Virus record (IMG/VR): IMGVR_UViG_3300020472_000207
Coordinates: 1-20,863 of that record
Reading direction: 5' to 3' (one strand)
DNA: 20,863 bases
Source of the DNA: a virus
Below are positions 2,180-14,095 of this stretch, in pieces (position 1 is the first letter of the stretch; each line of letters opens with the position of its first letter). Position numbers and translations under genes: made by a program. The notes under the pieces were generated by a model. The model was not told the origin of the DNA. It did no database searches and saw only the letters and a list, made by a program, of their open reading frames with translations.

Positions 2180-2187
2180 TATTTATA
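2180..2187 (-). promoter_or_regulatory. T4-type late promoter (TATAAATA)
   Basis: An exact TATAAATA octamer on the minus strand lies 33 bases upstream of the 66-residue gene's ATG. It probably drives the 66-, 268- and 88-residue genes. The TAA stop of the giant fiber gene (2183-2185) is again bases 3-5 of the octamer. Confidence 0.65.
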
Positions 2188-5100
2188 ATATTGCCCAGAA
2201 ACTATTTGAACCGATGGTTACAGTGCTTCCACTAGTAATTGTAATAGGTCCTACACTATAAACTAGTTGGTTATTACCAATAGACTCACTAGAAGAAATT
2301 GTAGTTCTTTGTGCTTTAAGTGTTCCATAGCTATCTGACCATTGATCTTGACCATTGGCTTTCAATGATCCAGTAAGGTATATAGATCCACTAACATCTA
2401 AAGCTTCTTGTGGGTCTGAATTGCCTGTATTAATACCTACCTTTGTTCCTCTATAGATATCAGTTCCGTTAGGAGCTGCTGTCCATCTAGAAGTTACAAA
2501 CGCATTTCCATTCTTGTAAATCTCACCAGTGAAGTTGAAGTTACCTCCAACTGTAAGTGCCATGTTAATGCCATTGGCAGCGAATGTTGTGGAGTTAATA
2601 GCAACTCTGTTATTAGTTCCTTGAACTGCAATAGCAGGAGTTGATTTCCAAGTAGTAGCTCCACTAGGACCATCGTTAGAAGTAATCTCAAAGATATCAC
2701 TACCAATAAGACTGTTACCAACACGGAAGTTGCTTAAGTATCCACCAGAACCATCAGCACCACCAGTTGCACCAAGGAAGTAAAGTGGAGCACCATTGTT
2801 GTTACCTGCATTACGGATGTAGATACTTGTATCTGCGTAGATTTCACCATCAACTTTTAGTTTGTAGCTAGAATCAGGTGCTGTACCAATACCAGTGTCA
2901 CCAACACCAAACTGAACATCACCACCTGAGAACAGGGTCATGTAATCAACTAGGTCAGTAATAGTTGATTGAGGTGCATTAGGTTGACCACGGAAGACAA
3001 GGTGTGCAGTATTTGCTGCACCTGTATTGTTCTTACGAACAATATTCCAAGTGTAAGCAGCTCCAGAGTTCTGGAATGAAATACCTTGATCATTTTCATT
3101 GTCCATCACCCTTAGGTTTAGACAATTTAATTCAGTACCATTATTTGTGTATAAGTTAAACTTACCATCATTGCTATCAGGTGCTTTATCAATACCAACT
3201 CTATCTAATGAGTCATCTGCAAAGATTAGATTATCACCACATTTGAAATCATCAGCAACTGTGATATTGCTTAAGAAGTCTGCTCTACCAGATACATTCA
3301 ATGCTTGATTGGCAGCAACAACACCAGTAATGCTCAAAGCACCAGTCATTGTATCACCAGCTCTAAGAACATTATTAGATGCTGAACCTGTTAGAGAAGC
3401 AGTAATTGTTCCTGCAGAGAAATCTCCATTTGCATCACGAATAACACCAGTACCACCAACGTTAGATGAGTTGAAAGCAATGTTACCTTCGTTCCAAATT
3501 TTGTTACCATTAACAGTGAATGAGTTATTGTTTCCAACTTTTATTTCAAGACTACCACTACCATTGGTGCTGCCACCACCTGTAGCAATAATTGCTGAGT
3601 TATAATCAGAAGCTGTAAGTGCAGAAGATCTAAAGAAGATAGAAGGGTCAGATGATTGACCATCTTTTCTACCAAGTTTTAAACGAGCATTACCAGAAAC
3701 ACTTTCTCCACTAATAATTTCATGTGTTCCATCAATATCTCCATCTGCATTATCATCAACTTGTGAAATATTCCAATTTTGGAATTGGTATGCATTACCT
3801 ACACCACCAGTACCAACAAATTCTGCATCATCAAAGGAACTATAATCTCCATTAGTCAAACTACCAGTAATTAATGTGTAGTTATTAGCAGCATCATTGG
3901 TATCTTGATTTGGTTCTACCTTTGTGATACTAATTGAACCTCTAGCAATACCACTTGCTGTATACAGATTAACTGATTGACCAGCTACAAATGGTGATGT
4001 ATTTAATAGTTCGTCTCTAACAAGAACGTTAACTCTAACATTTCCAACCCAATCCATAACACGGATTTTGGTTAAGATATCTTTCTCTCTTTGGAGATTT
4101 GGTAATCTTTCATTACTTAATACTCCATAATCCATATGCTGAGCAGACTGATACCAAGTTCCTTGGCGACCATCCATCTTATCAGCGTCTAGACCACTTA
4201 ATGTGCCATCGTTACCTGAATGCCAGATCTCATGCCAGTTACCAAATGAGTTTGCTGGACTGTTGTAAGATCCACGAAGCCACATACCAGCACCAACATC
4301 AGCATTAGCATCTGTGAATGCAAGTTGTCTTACACCACCAAACGTAGCATCAAAGTCAGTACCACCATTTCTGATAGTCATTACAACGTGTCTTGATCCA
4401 CCATCTGCTAGACCATCAGCAGAGTTGTTCTTAGTATCAGCAATAATACCAGCAGCAAACTCATCAGGAGATGGGTTACCAGTTGGTGAGTTAGTTGATG
4501 TCTTAAGTCTTAATGTGCTACCAGACTGGTTAGCAATATTAATATTGTAAGTACCAGATAGTCTTTCTACTGGTAAAGTACCAGCATTCTGGTTTCCAGA
4601 GTTTAGATAGAATGTACCTTGTGCTCCATCAAGTGTATCAGCATCAAGACCAGAATCAGGACCAGTGTTTATTTGAACAGAACCATTTCCAGCAAGACCA
4701 ATCAAGAATTGCTGCTTGTAGAATCTAGCAACACCCAATGTTCCATATGGATCACCAGATGTGGTTAGATCACTAACTCTGTCAACGTCAATTGTTACGT
4801 TTGCATATTGACGAAGAACTGTTGTAACCTTACCTAAAAGATTAAGACCTGTTCCTCCACCAATTTCTGCTGGAGAAGATGATATAACAAAGTCAACATT
4901 TGAGCTTGCAGTATTTTGTCCATAATCTTGACCACCATTTACGATAGTACAGTCAGTAACTGAACCACTATTAACAACTATATTAACTCTTAGACCAGTT
5001 CCAGCACCACCAGTTAGAGGTAAGTTGAAATATTGTCCGTCAGTAAATCCAGAACCACCACTTTGAACAACAACTTCTTCAACGAAACCACCTTCTGTTT

Positions 5101-8100
5101 GAGAAGACTCAACTGTTAGTGGTGATTTACCTCTGTTAAATTCTAGAACTGTTCCAGCTGGAAGAGTTGCTGTTAGGAATTTATCAAGAGTAATAGTTGT
5201 TTCACCAGATTCAGTTAGAACACCATCAATATTTGTGTCTGCCTGAATACCAGTAATCTGATCTACCTCATGACCCTTAAGGAAATTAGAACTAGACTCA
5301 AAGATTAACTGAGAAGAACCACTATTTGCTTGAAGTTTTAATTGAGCAAAGTATCTTGTCTCAGGACCTTTAATTGTTTGTACAGCAGCTGAATATGACT
5401 GATCTCCTCTTAAGAAAGTAAAGGAGTTAGCAGCACTTTCTACACCAGCAGCGTTAGATGCTAAACGTGCTGTAGAAATAACACCTGATGTAATATCAGA
5501 TGCAGCAATCTGGTTAGTAGATAGAGATACCCAGTTATTGTTATTGTCAGCAGATGTGTTGATAACACGATTAATATTAATTGTCTCAGCAGGAAGATCA
5601 CTAGACAGAATAGTATCTGTGTCTACAATCTTAATGTTGTTTACAATATCACCATACAATCTACTTTCAATTAAAGTAGTTGCGGTTGCTTGAGTACCAG
5701 ATCCTGCAGGAGCAGCAATAGTAATAGTAGGTGGAGTAGTGTATCCTTTACCACCAACATATCCATTGAACAATTCAATGTTCATAATTACAACTTGACC
5801 ATTAGCAATGGTTGTTGTAATGTTTGCGTCTACGGCACCAGCTTGAGGGTTACCACCAGATACTGTTACAACAGGTGGAGTAATATATCCAGATCCAGAA
5901 TCGGTAATATTAACCTGATAAACAACACCCTGTCTGTATTCAGTTGCTTGAATCTTACCACCACTAATATTACCAGTGAAAACATCACTAATAGTAAACT
6001 GTAATGTTGGGTCAACTGCGAAAGAAGTAAACAAACTTTCGTTATCATTATTCAGGATATATGATGTTGTAGTATCCTGTTGAATTGCGATATCACCAGC
6101 TAATGCTCCTTCAATAGCAAGTCTTTCATTTTGGTTTGCAATAGTGTAAACCTGGAAAGGACGTAGAGGTGGAATTTGATCTTCTGAAATCTTACCAGAA
6201 TCGGTAAGTTCAACCAATGCTCTAGGAACTGGGTTAGTAGAGAATGGTTTGTTAATATAAGGTCCTAAAGCGTTAGTGATGAAGTCTTTAACTGCCTTCT
6301 GTGTAGGTAGTTTAGAGTCACTAGAGTTAGCACCACCAAGTGTATTGCTGTTATCAAAACCAGTAACAACAACATCACCACCTTTAAGTTTCAAGAATTC
6401 AACTTCAGAGATTGTAACCGTACCAGTAAAGGTAATGTTACCAGTTCTGTTTTCAATTCTTGCAAATGTACCAACCTTAAAGTCTCCTAGTTCGTCAGTA
6501 CCAGAAACGTATGTCCGACCATAGTCTTCCGATACCTGTTCGTTTGCTTCAATCTTAGTACCACCGTTTTCAGGTAAAGCAAGATAGCTAGTACCAGAAC
6601 CAGCGTATTCCCAAGTATGAGATGAGGAGTTAACAATAGATGGTCTATGTAACTTAACTGACTCACCAATCAAACTTGCTAGGGAAACTACTTGATCAGT
6701 AGTGCTATTCTTAAATTCTGCAGGACCACCAGAACCAGATTCTAGTGTTAATTGAGCAGAGAAAGGAGGACCAACTGTAACGCCTTCTACAGTATCAACA
6801 AAGTATTCAATTTCTGGGTTAACATTTTCAAATCCATCAATCTTAACAACATAATGCTCAAGTGGTTCTCTACCAAGACCACTTACAGTAAAGATTGTTC
6901 TGCCAGTAGGAGTAGAAGATACATTGGTAACAGTACACATATCAAAGATATATGGAGTTGCACTGAAACCTCTTGCTCTTAGAGAGTAGATACCAAAGTT
7001 AGAAGCAGAGTTAGTAACAGAAGCGTAACCACCAGACTCAGCAAGGATACCATCTGCAGTAAAAATACAGAAGACTGAAACCAACTGTACATAACCATCA
7101 TTAGTAATCTTGTATCCAATACCACCTTCAGAAACAATCGTGAAGGCAGATGCAACCATTGACTTACCCTGATTAGGGAACTTAGCAGTTCCATCTAGAT
7201 TCAATCCAGGGAATGGGCAGTTAGGTTGCTTAACTTTAGAACCATCAACCAGAGCACCACCGCCACCTAGCTTGGAGATAACAGATGAGTTCTGTGTATA
7301 TGGAGATGCCTCAATGATGGGATAGTCATCATAAGTTGCTTTAACAGTTACTTTATTACCATTGAAATCACTAATAACACTGTCTGCATAAGTGTATAAA
7401 CCTGCTGTATCTAATAGTGTTCCTTTATTCTTAGTAGTAGCACCAGGATCAATTGTGCTACTTAAGATATCATCAAGAAGACCAAATAATGTTGTAATTG
7501 AAGCAGCAGTAGAAGCACATAAAGGATTTCCAGCAGGATCTGCTAAGATAGTATTATCTGTAAATCTTGGAATTGGTGTGAATGAAGCTGTAGTTGGGTT
7601 TCCACTAGCATCATTCCAATTACGAATTGCCTCAATACATAGATCTCTTGCTGCAGTAAATGCATATCTAGTTGCTGGAAGTTCGCTTGTAGGAACACCT
7701 GTTAACTCTGTTCCTGTGAAATATAGTTCAGCGTAAGTAACAGTACCATCATTTCCACCAAGAACTAAATCTTTTAGTAACGCAGAAATTACAAGATTGA
7801 TATCTCTACGGCATTTACGCTCATCAACATTATTAAGAACTAATGATGGGAATTGATTTCTTGCATCATTGTATGCCTCATCTACAATATGATCTCTATT
7901 TCTAGCAATTAAATAAGCACCATCTAGAACAGTTCCAGAAGCATCGTTTGCTAATACATCTACAAACAGATATGATAGAGTATCAATGGCAGATTTGACA
8001 TTAATACATGCTCCAGCTGGAGTGGTATCATCAATAATAGTTGGGTCAAAGTATCTGTCAAGACTAGAATATACAGGAGTATAAACAGGATCAGATACAG

Positions 8101-11100
8101 TACCATTTCCAGTACGCCACTTACGCATTGCGTAGATAGCTAATTCTCTAGCATACTCAATAGCACGTACAGTTTGAATAATCTCAAAGTCAATAGTCTC
8201 ATCAATAAAATTATTTGTAGCATCAATATATTTCTTAGCACCATCAATAATATTATTGTTACTACCAAATTCTAAATCTTGTATAAGAGCATTAAGGAAG
8301 TGTCTAATATCTCTCCTACAAGTTTCATCACTAATTGGAATACTAAAGCTTGGATATTTTTTCTGTGTTGTTACACCTAGAATAGTACATTCAACTAAAA
8401 TATCAGCAATTTCAACAATACTATCTTCTGCAATTCCAGGAATTGATGTATTAACAGTAATAGTTGCATTACCAGTAATGAGATTATCATAAGTGAAATT
8501 AGTTACAGTGTAAGTAACACCACCAAATTTAACAGTACCACCACTAATATATGTGTGTGCAAAACTAGATGCACCTAAGAAAATCTTAAAGCTGCTACCA
8601 CCAGTAGATAGATTATTATTTGTTGTTCTTACAAATGTGTGAGCAGTTTGAGCCATAAACTTAACGGCGTCTGCTGCAGAACTTTCAAAATAATGCGTAG
8701 ATTGTGGTTCATATCTAATAGCATTAGATGTAGCACTTACAAAACTATGAACAGTAGTATTAGAAGAAACACCTACGTTTATAGTGATTGTACCATCTTG
8801 ACGTGAAATTGCATTCTCAGAAGCACTTACAAATGTATGAGTGCCAGTATAAGAAGAACTTCCAACGTTAATCTTAAATGTGTTTACGTCTATAACTGAA
8901 ATAGGAACCCATCTACCACTGATAGGATCAAATCCTGGACGAGGATAAGAACTACCAGGATCTGCTTTTCCAACATTAAGTGTAATTTTTGTTCCAGTTG
9001 TTGATACAATCTCTAATGATGTATTGTATGCAGGGTCAGTTGCACGAGGGTATGTGTGTTGAGATGCATTACCATCTTTATCACAAGTAAATGTTAATGA
9101 GTCAGGATCAAGTCTAACAGATGTTCCTTTCTTTGTAATACTATTAGCAGCACCACTTAAGAATGTATGTGCGGTTGTATTTGTGGAAGGTACTGTATCT
9201 AATACTTGTATATCAAAAGTATTTGAAGTTACATTAGAAACTGATATCCACTTACCACTGATAGGATCACCACCAGTCTGAACACCGTTAGCTGTAGCAG
9301 ATACAAATGTGTGAACAGAATTAATACTAATAGCACCTTGTCCACCATTAACATTAACTGTTATACTGTCTCCAGTAATTGCTGAAATTGTTAGATCAGT
9401 ATTGTAAGCATAGTCATTTCCATTTGCTCTAGGATATGAACTTTGATTAGTTGCTGATGCTACACCAACATCAACAGTTATAGTAGTTGCTGATGTTGCT
9501 GTAATAGCAATGTTCTCACCAGAAACAGGGTCAGTTGCACGAGGATATTGATGCTCTGTAGCATTATTATCAGCATCACAAGTAAATGTTAGACCGTTAT
9601 TAGCAATCTGGATTGTGTTAGCAGTAGTTAAACTATGAGAACCAATCTCCAGTACCATCTCACCCGTTGTTGGATTGTAAGAAGTACCAGTTGCAGCAGT
9701 AAATGGTCCCCCAACATTTGCTGTAATAGCACCAGCAGCACCAGTTACAAATGCATGAGTTCCAACAGCAGCAGGACATTCAAAGGTTAGTGAATTTGGA
9801 GCTAGTTTAATAGCATCTCCAACTTGTAATCCATGAGCACCAATGGTAAGTACCATATCACCACCAGCAGGATCGTAAGTAGCATTCGCTACTGTATGAT
9901 TCTTAGGACCACGAGGATAAGCAGTACCAGGATTACTAATACCAACATTAACTGTGATAGTTGTACCAGTTACAGCACTAATATCAATAGCTTCTCCTGC
10001 TACTGGGTCAGTTGGACGTGGATATGAATGAGTTGTATTATAACCGTCTGCATCACACTGGAAATCTAAAGACTCAGGAGATATTATTACTTGATTGGAA
10101 GTTGTTAAACTATGAGAACCAATAGTTATTTCTAATTCACCAGAACTAGGAGTATATGAAGCATTGGTTACATCAAATATAACACCTCCAACTGCAGTTA
10201 CTGCACCAGCTGCGGTACCACCAACATAGTTGTGATTACCAGTACCATAAGTACAACTGAATGTTACAGCACCATCATCTAATTTAACCTTATCACCATT
10301 TACAAAACCATGATTTGTAGATGTTGTGATACTCATAATACCCGTTGTTGGGTTATATGATGTACCAGTAGTAGGTGAAAATTCTGACTGACCTACAAGA
10401 CTGTGAGAACCAATGGTTAATTCTAATTCACCTGTATAAGGATCATAAGTTGCATCACTGACATCATGACTTACTGCAGGTGATGCACCTACATTAACAC
10501 TAAATGAAGTTGCACTAATGAAAGTAATAGATAAATTGGTTCCAGATACAGGATCACTAGGACGAGGATATTGATGCTCTGTAGCATTATTATCCATATC
10601 ACATGTAAATGTTAATCCATTATCAGCAATCTGTATATTAGCTCCATTGGAAAGATTGTGAGCACTTGCAAATGATAATACTAATAAACCAGAACTAGGA
10701 GTATATGTTCCACCATTGGGAGTTAAATCGGTTCCTCCAGTTAAAATGGAATCAGTAGCAGCAGTTACAAATGTGTGTGTATAAGTACCACCTGAAGTTA
10801 CTGCTCCACCAGTTGCACTAACAAATTGATGTGTGTAGTTACCACCTATAGCACAAGAATAAGTTAGAGAATTATCTGAAATCTTAACATAATCATCCTC
10901 AAGGAATCCATGGTCATTAACTGTGAATGTAATTTCACCATTTGATGCATCATATACAGCATTAGTTGGTGTGTGTAAACTAGCACCAACAGCAGTAATA
11001 GCAATTGATCTACTATCTGCATATGGATCAATACCAGAACGAGGATAAGTTTTAGGAGATGAAGGATCTTGTAAACAAGTAAATGTTAATGAATCATTAT

Positions 11101-14095
11101 CAATAGTAATATTACGACCTACACCTAAACCATGCTGTCCAATGGTAAATACCATGTCTCCTGTAGTAGGATCATATTCAGCGTAAGTTGGTTGGAAATA
11201 TTTGTCTGCAGGAGCTGCACCAATATTAACAGTAATGGAAGTTGATGTAGATGATGTAACTGGAATAGATCTTACAGCATAAGGATCTATTCCTACACGA
11301 GGATATTGCTTAGCTGCGTAACGATTATCCATGTCACATGTAAATGACAAGGACTCGCTATCAATAGTAACACTTCCTCCAACTGGTATAGAATGAGATC
11401 CAATCTCTAGAACTAAATCTCCAGTAGATGGATTATATGATGTCCCTCCCTGTGGAGTAAAAAATGCGTTTGCAGGTGAAATACCAACATTAACAGTAAA
11501 AGTATCAGCAGTTTTTGTTGTAATTGGAAGTGATCTTCCAGATGCTGGATCACCTGATCTAGGATAAGTATGCTCTGTAGCATTATTATCCATCAAACAA
11601 GTAAATGTAAGACTGTTATCTGCAATTAAGATACCAGTTCCAACATCAAATCCATGGTTAACCTTAGTAAATACTAAGTCTCCAGTTGTAGAGTTATAAG
11701 CAGCACTTGTAGGTGTTGCAGTGTTAGTAGGAGTACCACCAATTTCAGATACTGAATAATAATCTTTACTAAACTCATCATTAATTCTTCCTACAACTTC
11801 ATCAGCAATAAACTCTCTATTATTTCTAATTTGAAGAGAAGCATCTTGAAATCTTCTGGCTACAGGAGTTGCTTCTCCAAATTTAAATGGAGAGTTAAGT
11901 AGAGATAAAGTTACTGATTTAGAATAAGATTGAACTTGTGCAAATTGACCAGGATCATAATTATCGTTAGTTAGAGAAGGTAACTTCTTGGGAATAACAA
12001 AACGTCTAGATCTACCATCAGGATCTTCAATAACCTTATAAATTCTTTGCTTACCATTTAAACTTGATAAGTCTGGAGCTGATGTAGATAGATTTTGAAT
12101 TAAGATTTCTTCACCTTCTTTGAAGTCGTGAATGTTATCTGATTCAACTAATGGGTTTGTATAGAAAACAATACCACCAAGATCTTCAGGTGTTCCATAG
12201 TCTCCAAAACCACCAGTAGCAATTGCTGCTTGACCTTGTTGTGAGAAATCAATTCTACTAATTGGTAGTGGTGGATCTGTTAAATTAGGTCTGTTCTCAA
12301 ATACTACCTCACCTTCAGGTCTAATAGAAATTATGTCAGTTGTAACAAGAGAATATGTATCTCTTAAATAGGTAAACTCTAGAGTATCAGGACCATTATT
12401 AGCAGCACCAGTATCATGAGTTGGGTTATTTTCTCCAGAAGTACCAGCAACAGTTACGTTGTATACATTATCTTCTGTCCAAACAACAGTACCAACTGTG
12501 TATGCTGTACTTGGTTGAAATCTTTCAGCATTTGAACCAGCGAATACTAATGTTTCACCAGCGTTTACAGAACCTGATGTTTGTACAAAATCAAATTTAC
12601 CATTAACATACGCACTTGCTCCTGTAGTTTCATCAAATTGAACATTTCTAGATGTAACAATACCACCAGCGTTAACACCTTTTAGTTCAATACCAGCTAC
12701 TAGATTATTAAGACCACCGTTAGACTGGAATGTTGTTCTAAAAATTGAATCACCAAAAACCTGATGACCTACAGGGAATTGAGTTGTAGCATCTCCGTTC
12801 TGATCAAAATCATACGTAACCCTTTGCTTATCGTCAAAGACCATAGCAAAGTCCCAAGTAAAGGTATCAGCACCTTCTTGGTCTCTATAAGTAACACCAA
12901 TAACGTAGTTTTTATCACCAAACTTAACGATGTGCTTTCTTGGGTTTGCAGGACGGATAATAACAAGACGTAAGTTATCACCAACAATAGAAGCATCAGG
13001 TGGAAGAGACATTGGGTTGTCTTCCGTGTAATCACCACCAGCAACGATAATAGATTCTTTTACACCAGGAGTTTCCCATGCCAACTGACATGCTTTCTTA
13101 ATTGTTCTAACTGGGTTAACTGGAGAACGACCATCGTTATTATCATCACCAATTAATTGAGAAACGTAAATACGACCACCAACATCATTCGTTGCTAGGT
13201 TAAGTACGTATTCTGTAGTTGCAATCTTATCAGAACTATCACCTAATAGTGGAGTAATAGATCTTGGGTATATTCCAGATTCTCCACTTGTATTATAGAA
13301 AACTTCGTTTGGATCAGATACACGAAAACCGATATGTTTAAACTGAACACCAGGAACAGGATCATTTAATTCATTACCGTTAAGTGCAATTCCATCAACA
13401 TGAAGAGGTGGATCTACAGGATCTACTGATGTAGTACCAACGTTCATAGATTGGTATACGTTAGAACCACGATAAACAAACGTATTTTTTTGTAGTAACC
13501 TTTCTGGTGCCCATGGAACACCAGTATTATTCATAAAGGTTTTAAGATTTGGTGCCCTGTAAGCTGCGTCAGGAGTAACCAAATTATCAATGTCTAGGTT
13601 TAGAATTCTCGCCGTATCAGAAATGATAGACGTTGAAGTTCTAATAGCACCGTTAATATCAAGTTCGTAATCAACAGAGTCAAGGTATGCCGTTGCTGTT
13701 GCACCTACACCATTTCCTCCACTAATTGTAACTGTAGGAGCAGATGTATAACCAGCACCTACATTATCAATAAGAACACCAACAAGTCTTCCTTCGGGGG
13801 AAATAGAAGCGGAACCAGCTGCTTGGATTTGATTATCACCCTGCGGAGCACTAATAGTAACTGTAGGTTGAGTTGTATAACCAGAACCTGGATTAGTTAC
13901 CTCAATTCTATCAATTCTATTTCCAGTTCTATTAATACCAATACGAGGCGTTTTCGTACTAGGTTCAAGTAGGGCACGCAAGACCTCCTTTTCATCAGTG
14001 CCTGATCCAGATCTTAAGGTGATCTCCTGATCTCCAATAATTTCGGGAGCATTAGCTCTAATTTGCTCTTTGTCAGAATTAAACTTAAAGCTCAT
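2183..14095 (-). CDS. Giant tail-fiber-type virion protein (3970 residues)
   Basis: A single uninterrupted frame of 11.9 kb runs from the ATG at 14095, with GGATAG upstream as a weak ribosome site. Layout by residue: 1-70 head; about 70-137 two GSGY-type repeats (PTVTISGG); about 295-305 an IATTEYV linker; from 309 a pectate-lyase-like beta-helix entry (IYVSQLIGDDNNDG, then PVRTIKKAC). From about 795 to 1735 there is a long tandem array of beta modules (SLTFTCD..YPR). Residues 1920-2200 carry two helical CRRDI modules. From about 2256 the beta-helix resumes (SPYTQNSSVISKLGGGGAL, GKSMVASAFTIVSEGGIGY). PTQKAVKDF is near 2595, more GSGY repeats follow, then TLDGAQGTFYL near 3150 and KMDGRQGTWYQ near 3305. 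A final beta tip ends NSFWAIL. This is a cyanomyovirus-style host-contact fiber; the receptor is unknown. No frameshift or internal stop is seen. It is far longer than T4 gp37 or gp34. Confidence 0.85.
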   Translation of the reverse strand: MSFKFNSDKEQIRANAPEIIGDQEITLRSGSGTDEKEVLRALLEPSTKTPRIGINRTGNRIDRIEVTNPGSGYTTQPTVTISAPQGDNQIQAAGSASISPEGRLVGVLIDNVGAGYTSAPTVTISGGNGVGATATAYLDSVDYELDINGAIRTSTSIISDTARILNLDIDNLVTPDAAYRAPNLKTFMNNTGVPWAPERLLQKNTFVYRGSNVYQSMNVGTTSVDPVDPPLHVDGIALNGNELNDPVPGVQFKHIGFRVSDPNEVFYNTSGESGIYPRSITPLLGDSSDKIATTEYVLNLATNDVGGRIYVSQLIGDDNNDGRSPVNPVRTIKKACQLAWETPGVKESIIVAGGDYTEDNPMSLPPDASIVGDNLRLVIIRPANPRKHIVKFGDKNYVIGVTYRDQEGADTFTWDFAMVFDDKQRVTYDFDQNGDATTQFPVGHQVFGDSIFRTTFQSNGGLNNLVAGIELKGVNAGGIVTSRNVQFDETTGASAYVNGKFDFVQTSGSVNAGETLVFAGSNAERFQPSTAYTVGTVVWTEDNVYNVTVAGTSGENNPTHDTGAANNGPDTLEFTYLRDTYSLVTTDIISIRPEGEVVFENRPNLTDPPLPISRIDFSQQGQAAIATGGFGDYGTPEDLGGIVFYTNPLVESDNIHDFKEGEEILIQNLSTSAPDLSSLNGKQRIYKVIEDPDGRSRRFVIPKKLPSLTNDNYDPGQFAQVQSYSKSVTLSLLNSPFKFGEATPVARRFQDASLQIRNNREFIADEVVGRINDEFSKDYYSVSEIGGTPTNTATPTSAAYNSTTGDLVFTKVNHGFDVGTGILIADNSLTFTCLMDNNATEHTYPRSGDPASGRSLPITTKTADTFTVNVGISPANAFFTPQGGTSYNPSTGDLVLEIGSHSIPVGGSVTIDSESLSFTCDMDNRYAAKQYPRVGIDPYAVRSIPVTSSTSTSITVNIGAAPADKYFQPTYAEYDPTTGDMVFTIGQHGLGVGRNITIDNDSLTFTCLQDPSSPKTYPRSGIDPYADSRSIAITAVGASLHTPTNAVYDASNGEITFTVNDHGFLEDDYVKISDNSLTYSCAIGGNYTHQFVSATGGAVTSGGTYTHTFVTAATDSILTGGTDLTPNGGTYTPSSGLLVLSFASAHNLSNGANIQIADNGLTFTCDMDNNATEHQYPRPSDPVSGTNLSITFISATSFSVNVGASPAVSHDVSDATYDPYTGELELTIGSHSLVGQSEFSPTTGTSYNPTTGIMSITTSTNHGFVNGDKVKLDDGAVTFSCTYGTGNHNYVGGTAAGAVTAVGGVIFDVTNASYTPSSGELEITIGSHSLTTSNQVIISPESLDFQCDADGYNTTHSYPRPTDPVAGEAIDISAVTGTTITVNVGISNPGTAYPRGPKNHTVANATYDPAGGDMVLTIGAHGLQVGDAIKLAPNSLTFECPAAVGTHAFVTGAAGAITANVGGPFTAATGTSYNPTTGEMVLEIGSHSLTTANTIQIANNGLTFTCDADNNATEHQYPRATDPVSGENIAITATSATTITVDVGVASATNQSSYPRANGNDYAYNTDLTISAITGDSITVNVNGGQGAISINSVHTFVSATANGVQTGGDPISGKWISVSNVTSNTFDIQVLDTVPSTNTTAHTFLSGAANSITKKGTSVRLDPDSLTFTCDKDGNASQHTYPRATDPAYNTSLEIVSTTGTKITLNVGKADPGSSYPRPGFDPISGRWVPISVIDVNTFKINVGSSSYTGTHTFVSASENAISRQDGTITINVGVSSNTTVHSFVSATSNAIRYEPQSTHYFESSAADAVKFMAQTAHTFVRTTNNNLSTGGSSFKIFLGASSFAHTYISGGTVKFGGVTYTVTNFTYDNLITGNATITVNTSIPGIAEDSIVEIADILVECTILGVTTQKKYPSFSIPISDETCRRDIRHFLNALIQDLEFGSNNNIIDGAKKYIDATNNFIDETIDFEIIQTVRAIEYARELAIYAMRKWRTGNGTVSDPVYTPVYSSLDRYFDPTIIDDTTPAGACINVKSAIDTLSYLFVDVLANDASGTVLDGAYLIARNRDHIVDEAYNDARNQFPSLVLNNVDERKCRRDINLVISALLKDLVLGGNDGTVTYAELYFTGTELTGVPTSELPATRYAFTAARDLCIEAIRNWNDASGNPTTASFTPIPRFTDNTILADPAGNPLCASTAASITTLFGLLDDILSSTIDPGATTKNKGTLLDTAGLYTYADSVISDFNGNKVTVKATYDDYPIIEASPYTQNSSVISKLGGGGALVDGSKVKQPNCPFPGLNLDGTAKFPNQGKSMVASAFTIVSEGGIGYKITNDGYVQLVSVFCIFTADGILAESGGYASVTNSASNFGIYSLRARGFSATPYIFDMCTVTNVSSTPTGRTIFTVSGLGREPLEHYVVKIDGFENVNPEIEYFVDTVEGVTVGPPFSAQLTLESGSGGPAEFKNSTTDQVVSLASLIGESVKLHRPSIVNSSSHTWEYAGSGTSYLALPENGGTKIEANEQVSEDYGRTYVSGTDELGDFKVGTFARIENRTGNITFTGTVTISEVEFLKLKGGDVVVTGFDNSNTLGGANSSDSKLPTQKAVKDFITNALGPYINKPFSTNPVPRALVELTDSGKISEDQIPPLRPFQVYTIANQNERLAIEGALAGDIAIQQDTTTSYILNNDNESLFTSFAVDPTLQFTISDVFTGNISGGKIQATEYRQGVVYQVNITDSGSGYITPPVVTVSGGNPQAGAVDANITTTIANGQVVIMNIELFNGYVGGKGYTTPPTITIAAPAGSGTQATATTLIESRLYGDIVNNIKIVDTDTILSSDLPAETININRVINTSADNNNNWVSLSTNQIAASDITSGVISTARLASNAAGVESAANSFTFLRGDQSYSAAVQTIKGPETRYFAQLKLQANSGSSQLIFESSSNFLKGHEVDQITGIQADTNIDGVLTESGETTITLDKFLTATLPAGTVLEFNRGKSPLTVESSQTEGGFVEEVVVQSGGSGFTDGQYFNLPLTGGAGTGLRVNIVVNSGSVTDCTIVNGGQDYGQNTASSNVDFVISSSPAEIGGGTGLNLLGKVTTVLRQYANVTIDVDRVSDLTTSGDPYGTLGVARFYKQQFLIGLAGNGSVQINTGPDSGLDADTLDGAQGTFYLNSGNQNAGTLPVERLSGTYNINIANQSGSTLRLKTSTNSPTGNPSPDEFAAGIIADTKNNSADGLADGGSRHVVMTIRNGGTDFDATFGGVRQLAFTDANADVGAGMWLRGSYNSPANSFGNWHEIWHSGNDGTLSGLDADKMDGRQGTWYQSAQHMDYGVLSNERLPNLQREKDILTKIRVMDWVGNVRVNVLVRDELLNTSPFVAGQSVNLYTASGIARGSISITKVEPNQDTNDAANNYTLITGSLTNGDYSSFDDAEFVGTGGVGNAYQFQNWNISQVDDNADGDIDGTHEIISGESVSGNARLKLGRKDGQSSDPSIFFRSSALTASDYNSAIIATGGGSTNGSGSLEIKVGNNNSFTVNGNKIWNEGNIAFNSSNVGGTGVIRDANGDFSAGTITASLTGSASNNVLRAGDTMTGALSITGVVAANQALNVSGRADFLSNITVADDFKCGDNLIFADDSLDRVGIDKAPDSNDGKFNLYTNNGTELNCLNLRVMDNENDQGISFQNSGAAYTWNIVRKNNTGAANTAHLVFRGQPNAPQSTITDLVDYMTLFSGGDVQFGVGDTGIGTAPDSSYKLKVDGEIYADTSIYIRNAGNNNGAPLYFLGATGGADGSGGYLSNFRVGNSLIGSDIFEITSNDGPSGATTWKSTPAIAVQGTNNRVAINSTTFAANGINMALTVGGNFNFTGEIYKNGNAFVTSRWTAAPNGTDIYRGTKVGINTGNSDPQEALDVSGSIYLTGSLKANGQDQWSDSYGTLKAQRTTISSSESIGNNQLVYSVGPITITSGSTVTIGSNSFWAIL
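7560..8340 (-). repeat. Duplicated helical CRRDI module inside the giant fiber
   Basis: Two copies share the pattern CRRDI...[L/I]..L..DL..G.N......A..Y, and later [Y/F]...AR.L...A.R.W. Copy one begins CRRDIRHFLNALIQDLEFG (near 8270-8325), and copy two begins CRRDINLVISALLKDLVLGG (near 7760-7815). Both are predicted helical within an otherwise beta-rich protein. I recall similar C.RDI..DL.YGGN modules in other cyanophage fibers. Limits are approximate. Confidence 0.7.
8900..11710 (-). repeat. Tandem beta-module array inside the giant fiber
   Basis: About ten to twelve degenerate units of roughly 65-90 residues repeat a core of Y[N/D]P.TG[D/E][M/L]V.TIGSHSL, then [I/V].I..[N/E]SLTFTCD.DNN.TEH.YPR..DP, then an I.[I/V]T...T.[I/F].VNVG strand. 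Some units replace the YPR half with HTFVSAT..AV. At DNA level the 20-mer TGCTCTGTAGCATTATTATC (plus strand) occurs identically at 11571-11590, 10575-10594 and 9552-9571, which points to recent duplication or gene conversion between units. The function is probably a long beta shaft or a string of binding domains. Confidence 0.8.

Follow-up and report, generated by a model that had tools for sequence, protein, structure and literature searches.

Phycobiliprotein-like modules in a large nested insert that appears to split the beta-helix of a giant cyanomyovirus tail fibre

A metagenomic viral fragment of 20,863 bases, referred to here as the window, carries on its minus strand a frame of 3970 codons (2183-14095) that is open throughout and encodes a giant tail fibre. 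The overall reading of this protein, to which we assign a probability of about 0.75, is that a beta-helix within it is split by a nested, length-varying cassette organized around a pair of phycobiliprotein-like modules. A single 3970-residue fibre gene at this position had been proposed in a preliminary description, which left the strand unstated, and the open frame bears this out. The product matches phrog_5342, a tail fiber protein family (E 0). Nothing useful came of scanning all 3970 residues with Pfam and NCBIfam. Related genes come from myoviruses of Synechococcus and Prochlorococcus, where they are giant fibre or structural genes. Downstream of the fibre gene there is a neck gene (head-tail adaptor), as is also the case in Syn1 and ACG-2014j. 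Elsewhere in the window, a 27-base unit is repeated in tandem over a short intergenic stretch (617-678). The main divisions of the fibre gene are as follows.

2183-14095, minus strand: giant tail-fibre gene, 3970 residues (open reading frame; phrog_5342; homologues annotated as tail fiber or structural protein)
13175-14095, minus strand: N-terminal region, residues 1-307, presumed baseplate-proximal anchor, a role inferred from position (conserved in close homologues)
12863-13174, minus strand: first part of the beta-helix, residues 308-411, nodes 6-104 of the beta-helix HMM (split match, i-E 5e-24; N-part profile matches GH136 enzymes)
7358-12862, minus strand: entire insert, residues 412-2246, about 1,835 residues (missing in uninterrupted homologues; mostly 290-2,220 residues in about 115 interrupted ones)
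6950-7357, minus strand: second part of the beta-helix, residues 2247-2382, nodes 103-219 (split match, i-E 1e-30)
2183-6949, minus strand: remainder of the fibre, residues 2383-3970 (last ~335 residues strongly divergent between near relatives)

The beta-helix HMM that reveals the split has 224 nodes and was constructed from 46 uninterrupted sequences of other cyanophage fibres; the residue numbering in its match tables starts one residue ahead of the Met. An earlier HMM constructed from eight proteins gives the same split (2e-18 and 2e-20). Neither matched piece is a complete domain, and each covers its own, abutting half of one profile. The two complementary pieces therefore indicate that approximately 1,835 residues are inserted into one right-handed beta-helix. 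As a sequence result, the split is confirmed to lie far beyond chance, and the nesting of some 1,800 residues inside one beta-helix is supported on the same basis, with co-folding across the insert being an inference. The net insert given by the split profile match agrees with the roughly 1800 nested residues previously put forward, and the strings taken as landmarks are found in place (IYVSQ at residue 309, SIVGD at 369, SPYTQ at 2264, and GKSMV at 2310). The borders needed partial correction, as entry into the beta-helix near residue 308 stands, but the exit lies near 411 and not 430, and the helix resumes near 2247 and not 2260. Among solved structures, the N-part profile matches beta-helix enzymes of family GH136 (7v6m, E 8.8e-5). 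Although the C-part profile has no match among PDB sequences, the C part still belongs to the common beta-helix profile.

Homologues without the insert occur in several cyanophages. The beta-helix halves are joined directly in P-SSM2 (617 aa), S-SRM01 (619 aa), and S-CAM9 (920 aa), and in S-SCSM2R the equivalents of residues 340-422 and 2253-2430 adjoin with three extra residues between them. The preliminary description had counted the lack of a middle in homologues as support for nesting, and these four phages indeed lack it at the insert site. Together with the split profile match, such insert-free homologues identify a beta-helix chain interrupted by foreign domains in one loop. Some are the gene's positional counterpart in phages of the S-SCSM2R type and the others represent a separate gene for a short fibre; none is a close homologue. 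The expectation that the two parts adjoin in related fibres holds in that uninterrupted homologues exist, but not among close homologues, every one of which has some middle. In P-SSM2 (region 4320-7338 of the locus compared) and in S-SRM01, the short uninterrupted gene adjoins photosynthesis genes, and in P-SSM2 a heme oxygenase is one gene away.

Interrupted homologues are more numerous and differ considerably in insert length. The S-T4 and ACG-2014f versions of the P-SSM2 short fibre gene carry approximately 290 (292 in S-T4) and 813 inserted residues, respectively, and each of these genes precedes a gene of about 340 bases. The match to the beta-helix HMM is likewise broken in about 115 other homologous ORFs or loci, nearly all around nodes 103-115, with inserts mostly of 290-2,220 aa (maximum 2,221), a few of about 50-110, and 409-522 in relatives of S-SCSM2R. 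These counts include near-copies; the tree of the flanks has 78 rows. On this tree the sister of the window is L009 (support 98/87), with inserts of ~1,837 residues in the window and 1,213 in L009. Sorted into ten classes, insert length requires 31 changes on the tree, where the minimum is 9 and shuffling gives 51.7 on average, and it is therefore inherited yet often changing. There is also a second insertion site, as helical modules in S-SCSM2R occupy another loop, past the N-terminal cap. In S-SCSM2R (3324-13535 in the locus compared) and DSL-LC03, the positional counterpart of the fibre gene has its beta-helix split by helical modules at this different loop.

Variation is also concentrated at the C-terminal end. 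The fibre of L009 is 87% identical to that of the window up to residue 3635, and only 35-61% beyond that. When near-identical relatives are compared, residues 3636-3970 (window 2186-3190) differ much more than the remaining fibre does. This end is likely the receptor-binding tip, a role that is inferred.

Predicted structures were obtained for one homologue of each kind. AlphaFold gave a pLDDT of 77.6 and a pTM of 0.65 for an uninterrupted homologue (L192, 620 aa, 26 sequences), and 80.6 and 0.71 for a window relative whose beta-helix is interrupted (L010, 1166 aa, 35 sequences). The best PDB match of the uninterrupted model is the long tail fibre of phage 7-7-1 (E 3e-6), and further matches are mainly pectin methylesterases, a rhamnogalacturonan lyase, and other beta-helix proteins. 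The probabilities of these beta-helix matches rise to 1.00, yet the TM-scores to solved enzymes are low, at about 0.2-0.3. When the strand assignments of the two models are compared on the profile nodes, 94 of 97 nodes agree on the N side (33 shared strand residues vs 12 expected), and agreement is weaker on the C side (78 of 105). Viral spike proteins also aligned with the interrupted model in Foldseek over long stretches, but at probabilities of 0.02-0.08, and were rejected as noise.

The insert itself has a layered organization, which is set out below.

11864-12862, minus strand: part A, residues 412-744, beta-rich domains (in all window-type homologues compared)
11753-11863, minus strand: opening helix pair of phycobiliprotein-like module 1, residues 745-781, cut off from the remainder of the module (contiguous in L069)
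8381-11734, minus strand: beta-repeat array, residues 788-1905, approximately 11-13 units of 70-100 aa, nested in module 1
7928-8368, minus strand: remainder of phycobiliprotein-like module 1, residues 1910-2056, with CRRD at 1926-1929 (helical-module HMM, E 3e-17)
7376-7927, minus strand: phycobiliprotein-like module 2, residues 2057-2240, with CRRD at 2095-2098 (PF00502, hhalign, and Foldseek)

One domain of part A weakly resembles carbohydrate-binding module 5/12 (CBM_5_12, E 0.048, under the cut-off). Ten units of the array are matched by a beta-repeat HMM at E < 1e-14. According to the homologue alignment, the array is absent from L010, L016, and L021, and in L009 it is 630 aa shorter, with flanking blocks that are 84-87% identical to those of the window. 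The helical-module HMM matches a contiguous module in L069 (residues 748-856, HMM 2-112), but in module 1 of the window the match begins only at node 22, at residue 1910. The first helix of module 1 precedes the array and the remainder follows it, and the array is therefore an insert inside the insert. Exactly two helical modules are present in 75 of the 77 insert-bearing ORFs. L016 has two and, in addition, an extra insert of about 424 aa, past the equivalent of residue 2192, that is not built of helical modules.

Helical modules in the middle had been recognized in the preliminary description, but their most striking point, the phycobiliprotein-like identity, was missed. Foldseek relates the model of the interrupted homologue (AlphaFold2, no templates) to phycoerythrins, phycocyanins, and related bilin proteins in the PDB with a probability of 1.00 and target-normalised TM-scores of 0.55-0.75; this is a predicted model, and of a close homologue of the window protein. 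When a profile of 54 diverse modules was searched against 177,635 PDB sequences, all 60 of the matches listed were phycobiliproteins (best E 3.3e-6), in an alignment that begins at residue 38 of phycocyanin alpha and includes the Cys-x-Arg-Asp motif. Pfam family PF00502 matches 23 of the 54 modules (best E 3e-5), and every other family matches at most one. In the window record the sole PF00502 match is module 2, at E 0.0018 and 12.2 bits, which does not pass the gathering cut-off of 22.2; it is therefore termed a divergent homologue and not a member of PF00502. As a single sequence in phmmer, module 2 has phycobiliproteins as its top four matches (best E 0.045). Alignment of the modules with 60 cyanobacterial phycobiliproteins in hhalign gives a probability of 96.4% and an E of 1.2e-9 over 62 columns, and the window's own row in this alignment is 27% identical. 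The score of 59.6 lies 18 standard deviations above that of 100 column shuffles (mean 11.9, SD 2.6, maximum 23.8), and with Cys-x-Arg-Asp masked it falls to 36.3. These profile comparisons show homology, and on them and the predicted model the helical modules are interpreted as divergent domains of phycobiliprotein fold. The sequence match is significant mainly over the ~62 columns, about one third of the module, with the fold of the rest coming from the model.

In phycobiliproteins the cysteine of this motif carries the bilin, and the arginine and aspartate contact it. Among 296 unique modules, the Cys is conserved in 94%, the Arg (+2) in 75%, the Asp (+3) in 94%, and the Gly (+18) in 95%, as compared with 98-100% for all four in phycobiliproteins. 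Outside Cys-x-Arg-Asp the modules diverge to approximately 20% identity. The strongest constraint on them is an N at +20 and a D at +14, neither of which is a phycobiliprotein feature. Phycobiliproteins have N-terminal X-Y helices through which alpha pairs with beta; in the model of the interrupted homologue, no such additional pair of helices can be seen between the tandem modules. A search of 50,697 phage records yielded 304 with modules, all cyanophages by name except for one marine virus record. The same helical modules appear in other giant structural ORFs of 3,300-7,300 aa, with up to 15 matches per genome; phages with such ORFs include S-RSM4, Syn1, ACG-2014j, S-PM2, Syn9, S-SM1, and P-SSM4, among others. 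Literature searches turned up no account of phage fibre domains that resemble phycobiliproteins or belong to PF00502, and to our knowledge relatives of phycobiliproteins have not been described in a protein of the virus particle.

Several other accounts of these data have to be weighed. The N and C parts could be two independent, complete domains in an ordinary linear chain, and their separation in all close homologues would fit this. Such an arrangement is nevertheless highly unlikely given that each part matches its half of one profile with practically no overlap, that the halves are contiguous in the P-SSM2, S-CAM9, S-SRM01, and S-SCSM2R-type proteins, and that some 260 columns of the uninterrupted protein align with beta-helix enzymes. 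In a metagenomic fragment with a repetitive array, the long insert could also be an assembly artefact of collapsed or duplicated repeats. We regard this as scarcely credible, as the independent contigs L011, L012, and L020 have inserts of nearly the same length as the window (1837-1842 residues), cultured phages share the fibre architecture, and the frame contains no interruption. Convergence on a common helical fold is a different objection, directed at the modules, and it draws on how widespread the globin-like fold is and on the limited length of the significant match. Against it stand the phycobiliprotein identity of all 60 PDB matches listed, a score that exceeds every shuffle even with the motif masked, the passing of the PF00502 cut-off in three related phages (S-RSM4, DSL-LC03, and Sf-CH11, always within giant structural ORFs), and the restriction of the module to cyanophages among 50,697 phage records, which together leave mere convergence very improbable.

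The reading that accounts best for these observations is the split beta-helix with its nested cassette. A pectate-lyase-like right-handed beta-helix of the tail fibre would form one folding unit, an inference as regards geometry that rests on the homology found, and the very large cassette would sit in one inter-coil loop. Its conserved core consists of part A and the tandem modules, which most likely derive from a cyanobacterial phycobiliprotein; here the homology is shown and the direction of transfer is inferred. The alignment shows the variable array nested in module 1, in the loop just ahead of the Cys-x-Arg-Asp helix. The module pair most likely acts as a conserved hub from which a side arm, itself inferred from topology, extends. 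The array, which has been repeatedly lengthened and shortened between close relatives, would set the length of the arm and present carbohydrate-binding-like surfaces to the host; adhesion is inferred, with no direct evidence. It is speculative that a trimer, with two modules in each chain, arranges all six in a ring like an (alpha-beta)3 disc. Points against this reading as a whole are that contact between the N and C parts across the insert is only inferred, that the C-side strand agreement is moderate, that the beta-helix TM-scores are low, that the module match is short, and that the window module falls under the Pfam cut-off.

Whether the modules also bind bilin is a separate question. CpeT belongs to a bilin-lyase family, and its purpose during phage infection is debated, including in phycobilisome-poor Prochlorococcus. 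One possibility is that the modules are functional bilin acceptors, in which the conserved Cys of the fibre carries a phage or host bilin, perhaps attached by the phage CpeT-type lyase, and this would yield a pigmented or light-responsive virion protein. The bilin-contact residues are strongly retained in modules that otherwise share little identity, and CpeT (PF06206) is found in 13 of 17 module-bearing cyanophages and in none of seven without modules (Fisher one-sided p 0.001, uncorrected for kinship; the 24 phages comprise 15 from the fibre search and nine reference genomes chosen by accession). Furthermore, in S-RSM4 (FM207411, 162121-177047) and Syn1 (GU071105, 19938-33236), no more than about 1 kb separates cpeT from another giant fibre gene that is rich in modules. 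However, only the Cys, Arg, and Asp pocket residues were compared, the constraints at +20 and +14 are foreign to phycobiliproteins, and the co-occurrence may merely mirror clades. The occurrence of bilin reductase genes was also compared with that of the modules, and no association emerged. T-type lyases reportedly act at Cys-153 and not at Cys-84, and phage CpeT has so far been assumed to act on phycobiliproteins or antenna proteins of the host (PMC10452541). With no binding data, functional acceptance of bilin is considered doubtful. The wider proposal that cyanomyovirus fibres carry captured, still bilin-binding phycobiliproteins, such that the virion is a biliprotein and the modules are a substrate of CpeT, is improbable on present evidence, with bilin binding itself being speculative. 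We know of no coloured virions. If the proposal were true, the fibre modules would be a substrate of the phage bilin lyase and possibly a use for phage-made bilins. In any case, they constitute a new, testable candidate substrate for phage CpeT.

Comparison with known systems places these features in context. The modules resemble phycobiliproteins (PF00502: phycocyanin, phycoerythrin, and allophycocyanin) in fold, profile similarity, Cys-x-Arg-Asp, and the Gly at +18, but differ in residing inside a phage fibre, in the divergence of the residues after the motif, and in the lack of a visible X-Y pair between them. Through an insert core homologous to phycobiliproteins, cyanophage virions are concretely linked to the proteins with which their hosts harvest light. 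Phage beta-helices with insertion domains have been described before, but those domains are small. The tailspike LKA1gp49 of Pseudomonas phage LKA1 has a right-handed beta-helix chain interrupted by an insertion domain beside the helix (284-370, between 181-283 and 371-675), and this 87-residue insert is one beta-barrel that shapes the active site (PMC5701251), whereas the insert of the window spans several domains, is nested, and varies in length. The long tail fibre of Agrobacterium phage 7-7-1 (PDB 9rkv) is trimeric with a beta-helical middle domain (PMC12796354); it is the closest structural match of the uninterrupted homologue, but has only about 590 aa and no reported insert. Finally, the short fibre gene of P-SSM2, S-SRM01, and S-CAM9 belongs to the same beta-helix family as the window fibre and is uninterrupted at the insert site. 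A nested insert of about 1,835 residues, varying in length and placed at a site that is empty in related genes, shows the way in which fibres of this kind grow.
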